A stretch of 64,000 nt of DNA from Phycisphaerae bacterium RAS1 (lineage in GTDB: Bacteria > Planctomycetota > Phycisphaerae > UBA1845 > Fen-1342). Below, one piece after another: positions 1 through 1,539 of the stretch (the stretch's first letter is position 1; every line of letters begins with the position of its first letter). The notes under the pieces were generated by a model. It had not been told where the DNA came from, searched no databases, and saw nothing but the letters and a program-made list of their open reading frames with translations. Location of the stretch: contig SMLU01000001.1 in NCBI GenBank assembly GCA_007859745.1, forward strand, positions 2,666,001-2,730,000. Reading direction: 5' to 3'. The translations under genes were made by a program, and so were the position numbers.

Positions 1-481
1 CCACGCGCGGCAGATCGGCGACAACCAGTCGTACCTGTTCATCCGCAACTCGCTCAAGAAAACCGCCACGATCAAGAAACTGCTCGAGCGCCAACTGCTG
101 GCGGTGAAGAACGCCCTGCTCATCAAGCGCCAGGCCGAGGCCTCGGCCGACTTCGCCTCCGCCATGAACCTCATGGCCGGCGAAGTCAGCAAGCTCTACG
201 GCGAGACGGACCTGACCAAGACGCAGATGCAGTGGGAAAAGGCGATGATGCAGTCGCAGAGCATGGAGGAACGCATGCAGATGTTCCTCGACTCGGTCGA
301 GCAGGGCGCCGCGGCGGACGTCTCGGCGACGCCGGTCGAGGCCATCAGCGATGAAGACATCGATCGCATGCTCGCGGCGGAGGAGCAGGTGGAGCAGGCG
401 AAGGAGACGGCGCAGATGAGCGATCTGCGGGCGGAATTGGCGAAGCTGAAGGGGGAGGGCGGGGCGAAGGAGACGAAGTGA
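1..481 (+). CDS. ESCRT-III (Snf7/CHMP)-like protein, C-terminal 159 residues
   Basis: The frame is open from base 2, so the start lies before the window; it ends at TGA 479-481. The product is almost entirely helical and charged. Its layout resembles eukaryotic CHMP/Vps2-type ESCRT-III: a basic segment with an IRNSLKK motif followed by a long helix (visible residues about 10-65), a Met-rich helix with WEKAMMQSQSMEERM (about 78-100), an acidic short helix with ISDEDIDRML, and a last amphipathic helix DLRAELAKLKG (141-151). That last helix fits the MIM1 spacing (acidic, Leu, Leu, Leu, Lys) used by Vps2/Vps24/CHMP1 to bind Vps4, except that the usual Arg is Glu. ESCRT-III proteins polymerise on membranes to remodel them. 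The assignment is by remembered pattern, not by search; a generic coiled-coil protein or a PspA relative are the alternatives. Any Vps4-like ATPase would have to lie outside this window. The last 24 codons recur at 1273-1344. Confidence 0.55.
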   Translation, partial: HARQIGDNQSYLFIRNSLKKTATIKKLLERQLLAVKNALLIKRQAEASADFASAMNLMAGEVSKLYGETDLTKTQMQWEKAMMQSQSMEERMQMFLDSVEQGAAADVSATPVEAISDEDIDRMLAAEEQVEQAKETAQMSDLRAELAKLKGEGGAKETK

Positions 482-722: not shown

Positions 723-956
723 ATGCCGACGATCGCGAGAATCGGCCCGTACCGGATATACTTCTTCAGTCTCGTGGTGAACCGCCGCATGTTCACGTGG
801 ATCGCGATGACAGTACGGCCAAGTTCTGGCTCGATCCGGTCGCGCCGGCGTATACGATCGGGTTTCGCGCGAAAGAGCTTCGCGACATTCGGCGGCCAGC
901 ACGCGACCGAGTGGATGGAGCTGTGGAATGACAACTTCGGCCCCCAGGCCCGGTGA
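723..956 (+). pseudogene. DUF4160-family protein with two compensating frameshifts
   Basis: DUF4160 proteins are about 80 residues and usually sit just upstream of DUF2442 genes in toxin-antitoxin-like pairs; their biochemical role is not established. Frame 0 from ATG 723, behind a good GAGGA Shine-Dalgarno at 713-717, gives the family's opening MPTIARIGPYRIYFFS. Near base 768-775 the family sequence jumps to the other frame, which encodes RGEPPHVHVDRDDSTAKFWLD and then KELRDIRR. Near base 890-900 it returns to frame 0 for the ending WMELWNDNFG, and stops at TGA 954-956. One missing base and one compensating change explain this. Either the gene is dead or there are two assembly errors. It overlaps the DUF2442 start by 29 bases, the normal arrangement for the pair. 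Confidence 0.7.
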
Positions 957-1200
957 GCGCGTCGCCGACGTGCGCTTCGATGACGACTCGATGAGCGTCG
1001 ACCTGACCGACGGCCGCACGATTACTGTACCGCTGGCGTGGTATCCGCGGCTGCTCGACGCGACGCCGCAGCAGCGTCAGAACTGGCAGCGCTGCGGGGG
1101 CGGGTTCGGGATCCACTGGCCGGAGATTGACGAGGATCTGAGCACGCAGGGTCTGCTCGAAGGAGTTCCCGCCCCGCGCCGGCCGGAAGCGGCGAGGTAA
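928..1200 (+). CDS. DUF2442 domain protein
   Basis: Ninety residues. The core is the DUF2442 pattern: VADVRFDDDSMSVDLTDGR, then a PLAWYPRL motif and a GFGIHWPEIDEDLS ending, so the domain is complete (about residues 10-77) with a short disordered tail. DUF2442 proteins pair with DUF4160 and are proposed antitoxin or DNA-binding partners; this is family-level knowledge, not visible in the sequence. The ATG lies inside the 3' end of the frameshifted DUF4160 gene, implying translational coupling before that gene broke. The pair lies between the two copies of the ESCRT-like gene's 3' end. Confidence 0.85.
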   Translation: MTTSAPRPGERVADVRFDDDSMSVDLTDGRTITVPLAWYPRLLDATPQQRQNWQRCGGGFGIHWPEIDEDLSTQGLLEGVPAPRRPEAAR

Positions 1201-1539
1201 TGGGCCGGCGCTTGCAGCGGTCGATCAGCGCAAGCCAGTGATTGGCGCGCGGGCGGCGAGCACGTGCGTCCGGCGCAGATGAGCGACTTGCGGGCGGAAC
1301 TGGCGAAGCTGAAGGGCGAGGGCGGGGCGAAGGAGACGAAATAACCGCGTTGAATTGGTAGCGTCGGGCTTCTGTGGCCGACGGCGTTTTGGCTTGAAAG
1401 TGCAGAGCAGCGGCACTACGTGGAGCGGACTTGGAGCATGACCAGCACCGCCCATCCGCACGGGCGGTAGGGCATCGCTATTCTCTCGAGAGCAGCAGTG
1501 TTTGGACACATAGTCCGTGTATTGTAAGAGCCCCATACC
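1201..1539. other. Intergenic stretch with tail copy and one GTAG hairpin
   Basis: Apart from the duplicated gene tail (1273-1344), the stretch contains one REP-like unit at about 1357-1387: GTAG, stem CGTCGGG, loop, stem GCCGACG. It is the same family as the paired copy at 57080-57155. The remainder, including an AT-richer part near 1480-1535 that may hold the promoter of the next gene, shows no clear feature. Confidence 0.6.
1273..1344 (+). pseudogene. Second copy of the last 24 codons of the ESCRT-III-like gene
   Basis: These 72 bases match 410-481, the last 23 codons plus stop of the first gene. There are six codon differences, and all are silent: GAT/GAC, CTG/TTG, TTG/CTG, GGG/GGC, AAG/AAA and stop TGA/TAA. 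Homology begins sharply at 1273; upstream sequence is unrelated and no open frame leads into it. The fragment therefore comes from a protein-coding gene that diverged under selection and then lost its 5' part, or whose 3' end was replaced. It encodes the MIM1-like helix. Confidence 0.85.

Follow-up and report, generated by a model that had tools for sequence, protein, structure and literature searches.

A CHMP-like protein and a Vps4-like ATPase point to a bacterial variant of the ESCRT-III/Vps4 system in Planctomycetota

The gene at the left edge of the analyzed DNA encodes a protein, here called P1, that is very probably one subunit of a bacterial ESCRT-III/Vps4 membrane-remodeling system. 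The window, meaning the whole stretch of 64,000 nucleotides that was analyzed, corresponds to G000:C1:2666001-2730000 in the genome of Phycisphaerae bacterium RAS1 (5.5 Mb, 7 contigs). An earlier, sequence-only reading of the first bases of the window had proposed an ESCRT-III polymer with its own Vps4-like partner in a planctomycete. That proposal is supported by matches of the P1 family to the Snf7 profile, a predicted ESCRT-III hairpin, an ATPase with MIT, AAA, and Vps4_C domains in the same genome, the adjacency of the two genes in a conserved operon of relatives, and their co-inheritance.

An uninterrupted reading frame on the plus strand (window positions 2 to 481) continues past the left window edge. 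The missing N terminus was recovered from the upstream contig sequence, which puts the start of the gene 131 bp outside the window; the full-length gene (G000:C1:2665870-2666481) encodes 203 amino acids beginning with MGLFKSKEERR. The features within the window are as follows.

2..481, plus strand: 3′ part of the P1 gene, residues 45-203 and stop (frame and start, Snf7/CHMP profile matches, model, and fold search)
23..196, plus strand: predicted long helix α2/3 of the P1 hairpin, residues 52-109 (AlphaFold model of the 82%-identical homolog L033, numbering transferred)
215..328, plus strand: predicted Met-rich helix α4, residues 116-153 (AlphaFold model of homolog L033; conservation)
344..373, plus strand: acidic conserved motif ISDEDIDRML, residues 159-168 (conservation in 79 homologs)
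422..451, plus strand: C-terminal amphipathic helix DLRAELAKLK, candidate MIT-interacting motif, residues 185-194 (conservation; MIT binding putative)
1271..1340, plus strand: 94%-identical copy of the 3′-terminal 70 bp of P1 (sequence comparison)

The segments from which the CHMP-like order had been read (basic helices, Met-rich helix, ISDEDIDRML, and DLRAELAKLKG) are all present, and their conservation shows that they did not arise by chance. In the acidic motif, D161 is found in 75/79 homologs, and E/D163, I164, D165, and M167 are also conserved. A leucine-type helix is kept at the tail across the 79 homologs, with L186 conserved in 59 and I/L190 in 75. The tail had been taken for an MIM1 element. 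The leucine spacing of that motif (L-x3-L-x2-L-K) does occur, but solely in the clade of the window's P1; in the majority of homologs the spacing is L-x3-I-x3-L, and the consensus arginine of MIM1 is missing. Judged by sequence, the tail appears to be a conserved amphipathic helix that matches a classical MIM1 approximately only.

The window's P1, taken by itself, matched no Pfam family and nothing meaningful among PDB sequences, and the family membership of P1 therefore rests on its relatives. PF03357 (Snf7) was matched by 20 of the 23 aligned relatives (best, 2.7e-6), with bit scores near the cutoff of 27.3 (27.2 for L014). When a profile of 50 P1 sequences was compared to PDB chains, CHMP3 (1.7e-4), SNF7 (0.012), and CHMP2A (0.018) were retrieved, followed by designed-protein noise, and a profile from the 23-member alignment likewise retrieved CHMP3 and CHMP2A. 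PspA/Vipp1 chains were absent from both of these searches, and PF04012 (PspA/IM30) was not among the families listed for the 23 members. Searches of the window's own genome with the PF03357 and PF04212 models yielded no match because single divergent sequences score below the models, and family alignments were used instead. As had been anticipated, it is thus the Snf7 profile and not the PspA profile that the P1 family matches, while the window protein alone matches neither. Sequence profiles and the structural model together place P1 with the Snf7/CHMP type of ESCRT-III proteins and not with PspA.

The structure of P1 was read from the AlphaFold model of the 82%-identical homolog (pLDDT 78.7), in which helices span residues 7-49, 52-109, 116-153, and 162-201. 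The predicted structure has the ESCRT-III layout, with a basic α1-α2 hairpin, α3 to α5, and an acidic C-terminal part, and the hairpin on which the earlier reading had depended is present in the model and recovered by fold search. In a Foldseek search, ranks 1 to 19 were all ESCRT-III or Vipp1/PspA structures, with CHMP2A at the top. VIA-align superposed the model on CHMP2A with a Z of 11.2 (rmsd of 1.8 Å over 109 residues), on Snf7 with a Z of 10.7 (rmsd of 2.0), and on Asgard ESCRT-IIIB with a Z of 11.3. These Z values of about 11 lie below the caution level of 13 for helical proteins and are only moderate for proteins made of long helices; thus, the ESCRT-III case rests on the agreement of sequence and fold.

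A candidate Vps4-like ATPase is encoded in the same genome at G000:C2:466312-467445. It has a single AAA domain (3.9e-38), AAA_lid_3, and Vps4_C (30.3 bits; cutoff, 21.3). A profile of 27 N-terminal domains of these ATPases matched the MIT domain of VPS4B over its full length (1.6e-4) and, more weakly, the MIT domains of calpain-7 and Sulfolobus. Pfam MIT itself was matched by 4/27 of the N-terminal domains (best, 1.6e-6; L104, 2.9e-5), and the own-genome copy by itself had no MIT match. A Vps4 can be called by an MIT domain or by nearby ESCRT genes (PMC10936438), and by the MIT match of its family and its adjacency to P1 in relatives, the protein qualifies on both counts. The earlier reading had treated an AAA ATPase partner as decisive and advised a search for an MIT-AAA protein within about 10 kb of P1 and genome-wide; such a protein is present in the genome and adjoins P1 in relatives, but the own copy lies on another contig. 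The designed-TPR matches of the N-terminal domain are repeats of one 25-residue helix pair and were not counted in favor of a TPR, and a ranking of the ATPase against PDB chains was set aside because Cdc48 chains, having two AAA domains, add up the scores of two stretches and make it uninformative.

The 70 bp that end P1 (window positions 408-477) are repeated with 94% identity 863 bp downstream, and this duplicated tail marks a rearranged 3′ flank at the position where close relatives have the Vps4-like gene. The duplicates enclose a DUF2442 gene (window positions 928-1200; 3.4e-25), and in another genome (G517), a partial copy of the P1 tail is also located near the P1 gene. Further along the window, a gene pair on the minus strand (positions 2187-2704) encodes a ParE-type toxin (3.9e-6) and an addiction-module antitoxin (9.4e-13). 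On contig C2, just upstream of the Vps4-like gene, is an open frame on the minus strand (L117:6451-7776), which we take by eye to be an IS110-type transposase; such a frame beside the Vps4-like gene would fit a split of the operon in the window's genome.

Linkage was counted in the 46 loci where P1 is flanked on both sides by 4 kb of sequence or more. An ATPase gene lies no more than 4.5 kb from P1 in 39 of them, and 7 have no ATPase nearby. ATPases of the type described above (first type) are always downstream of P1 (29 cases; median gap, 9 bp), and those of a second type are always upstream (29 cases). This second, more distant type, also with an MIT-like N terminus, is found upstream of P1 in many planctomycetes (e.g., L059:8772-9971, L081:7789-9039, and L095:8684-9925), so some of these organisms may have a pair of dedicated Vps4-like motors. 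One Clostridia locus (L108:7981-9822) encodes a second P1-like protein, and between both copies is a different AAA protein, which looks CbxX/EccA-like by eye and whose N-terminal helical domain is similar.

Among 248 genomes of the same class, 63 contain both P1 and the first-type ATPase, 4 contain P1 only, 2 contain the ATPase only, and 179 contain neither, although the Fisher value for this co-occurrence overstates independence because the genomes are related by descent. The ATPase is thus present in 63/67 P1-bearing genomes. The two genes are linked in 35 of the 63 genomes with both and unlinked in the other 28, including the window's own. One family (f95, two genomes) is the sole family of the order without P1, and there the ATPase is missing too. 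This joint loss and the pairs that co-occur despite being unlinked are informative as evidence of co-inheritance.

A search of the phylum identified P1 homologs in 54/294 genomes. Full-length P1 is present in 46/48 genomes of the window's order, including single-contig assemblies, and the genes of the system belong to the core of this order, each in one copy. P1 loci were found in Phycisphaerae, other Planctomycetota, single Hydrogenedentes and Sumerlaeota bins, and Clostridia/Eubacteriales (26 to 30% identity).

The core status of the gene set in the order raises the question of division, because Cdv replaces FtsZ as the division machine in Sulfolobus and no FtsZ (TIGR00065) was detected in any of the 248 genomes of the class, with or without the ESCRT-like system. 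A planctomycete system acting in place of FtsZ would fit both observations. However, the 179 genomes that lack both system genes lack FtsZ as well, so the system is not the general FtsZ substitute, and some Clostridia carry the system although Clostridia possess FtsZ. Replacement of FtsZ by the system is therefore not specifically supported, and we consider it rather unlikely.

The AAA protein could instead be a Cdc48-type unfoldase with a TPR- or MIT-like N-terminal domain and with substrates other than P1, its link to P1 being regulatory or incidental. Among NCBIfam models, CdvC was the best for the own-genome ATPase (226 bits), with CDC48 just behind (216 bits) and the matches below the CdvC equivalog cutoff; since the two models score about equally, the protein may be something other than a Vps4 orthologue. 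Designed TPR repeats are also matched by the first helix pair of its N-terminal domain. The single AAA domain, the full-length match to the VPS4B MIT domain, and a Vps4_C score above the cutoff nevertheless argue for a Vps4-like protein, as do the tight gene order with P1 and co-inheritance even of unlinked genes, and an unfoldase of the Cdc48 type is improbable.

It is very improbable that P1 is a divergent PspA/Vipp1 that acts in envelope stress and needs no Vps4. These proteins share the superfamily fold of P1, both were recovered in its fold search, and an SPFH protein, such as the one predicted near P1 in relatives, is a known PspA partner (PMC10936438). However, the P1 model superposes on CHMP2A/Snf7 at 1.8 to 2.1 Å and on PspA/Vipp1 at 2.8 to 4.1 Å, and the family profiles and the co-inheritance of P1 with an MIT-AAA ATPase also stand against this interpretation. 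Moreover, the genome has a distinct PspA gene (L118:6441-7058, equivalent to G000:C3:158441-159058; 43.9 bits), which is its sole PF04012 match. About 1.3 kb beyond this gene is an AAA-type match (L115, 26% identity), and the two are possibly an instance of the PspA-AAA pairing described in PMC11237479.

Contamination, or recent acquisition from an archaeal or eukaryotic source, is hardly credible even though most of the sequences found come from metagenome-assembled genomes: P1 is located on a 3.4-Mb contig, recurs in nearly all genomes of the order, and had no match in IMG/VR or in plasmids. An ancient transfer into bacteria is possible. We only tentatively propose, and regard as doubtful, that the complete multisubunit ESCRT-III and Vps4 system is old and vertically kept in several bacterial phyla, in which case the pairing would predate the archaeal branch or have crossed domains very early, and would not have arisen in archaea and stayed within archaea and eukaryotes.

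The interpretation of P1 as part of an ESCRT-III/Vps4 system extends to its upstream neighbors, which are located as follows.

L001:13259-13864, same strand as P1, directly upstream: P2, 201 amino acids
L001:11558-13039, same strand as P1, upstream: P3, 493 amino acids
Upstream, same strand as P1: small zinc-ribbon frame
L001:9985-11241, same strand: Ser/Thr protein kinase with double zinc ribbon (Pkinase, 6.7e-37; DZR, 3e-6)

P2 is homologous to the C-terminal half of P3 (hhalign E value, 2.6e-7), and separate genes of other planctomycetes (c7 and c8) and of Clostridia (c24) fall in the P2/P3 families. No link between P2 and P1 was found by profile comparison, and neither P2 nor P3 matched an ESCRT-III family in PDB or Pfam sequence searches, so the ESCRT-III assignment of both rests on structure and context. 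A weak CHMP4b match of P3 (0.4) was set aside. The P3 model (pLDDT 80.7) has an α/β N-terminal domain, a winged helix (residues 190-264), and helices at 284-325, 329-378, 385-411, and 420-440. The winged helix resembles many others, including those of ESCRT-II subunits (Z of 8.5 to 9.1), and the hairpin resembles CT398 (Z of 12.7), CHMP3 (10.7), and Asgard ESCRT-IIIB (10.5). P3 is thus predicted, from its model, to be a fusion of a winged helix and an ESCRT-III-like helical domain. Its α/β domain (residues 1-188; L001:11558-12121) had weak Foldseek matches to RPB5-type subunits, and the motif SATGF..EA / LI..G there recalls, to our eye, Mrr-like nuclease folds. The gene following the ATPase (C5) matched Band_7/SPFH in 3/7 members tested (3e-4 to 6e-4, below the cutoff) and has propeller-like repeats in its second half. 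In Clostridia loci, an SPFH and zinc-ribbon gene is followed by P2, P1, and the ATPase.

By analogy with the known behavior of ESCRT-III and Vps4, P1 would polymerize and bind membranes, its tail would bind an MIT domain, and disassembly would be driven by ATP. P3, P2, and P1 may together form a composite filament along the cytoplasmic membrane, on its inner side, with the winged helix of P3 and the SPFH/propeller protein recruiting or anchoring the filament and the zinc-ribbon Ser/Thr kinase regulating it. The MIT domain of the MIT-AAA-Vps4_C ATPase would grip the C-terminal helix of P1 and subunits would be extracted, whereupon the filament would remodel, bend, or sever the membrane. The cellular process served may be membrane repair, vesicle budding, or division.

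The closest known arrangement is that of archaeal ESCRT loci (the "main" and Meth_adaptin clades; PMC10936438), in which ESCRT-III is likewise found beside an MIT-AAA Vps4, a winged-helix protein, and a Ser/Thr kinase, with SPFH and a zinc ribbon in some loci. The present system differs in its bacterial hosts, in the fusion of a winged helix ahead of the ESCRT-III-like domain in one protein, in the zinc ribbons of the kinase, and in the fusion of SPFH to a propeller. Eukaryotic CHMP/Snf7 proteins share the hairpin and helix order and are the nearest PDB matches of P1 in sequence and fold, and the ATPase MIT domain matches VPS4B; however, identity is approximately 10 to 14%, the P1 tail fits MIM1 loosely, and no ESCRT-0/I or ubiquitin parts were seen. 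Crenarchaeal CdvB/CdvC have in common with this system a single-AAA ATPase for which CdvC is the best model, whereas the CdvB winged helix is C terminal, no CdvA was seen here, and the ATPase scores below the equivalog cutoff. In CHMP7, a winged helix precedes the ESCRT-III domain as it does in P3, but P3 has one winged helix, placed after an α/β domain of uncertain fold, and has no sequence match to CHMP7. PspA/Vipp1 resemble P1 in superfamily fold, bacterial occurrence, and a known SPFH partner and differ from it in the PF04012 match and in having a separate gene in this genome.

ESCRT systems with both components have been placed only in archaea and eukaryotes (PMC10936438), and bacteria have been reported to lack a clear Vps4 homolog (PMC7615534). 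Sporadic Snf7 homologs and AAA+ neighbors have been reported in bacteria (PMC11237479), and the idea of a bacterial ESCRT-III/Vps4 system is therefore not wholly unprecedented; in that study, an unrelated gene displaces Snf7 where VPS4-like genes entered bacteria, and its main text does not mention Planctomycetes. No description of a planctomycete ESCRT-III/Vps4 system was found in the literature searched (preprints and most subscription papers being outside its scope), and the gene set is most aptly classed with the ESCRT-III/Vps4 systems, as a bacterial variant so far undescribed in that literature.

Planctomycetota have elaborate internal membranes and lack FtsZ, and the system described here would offer a testable membrane-remodeling mechanism for them. 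A conserved operon in bacteria that encodes a CHMP-like protein together with a winged-helix/ESCRT-III fusion and an MIT-AAA ATPase would alter the view that bacteria lack the ESCRT-III/Vps4 pairing, and studies of how the eukaryotic machine arose would gain an outgroup.
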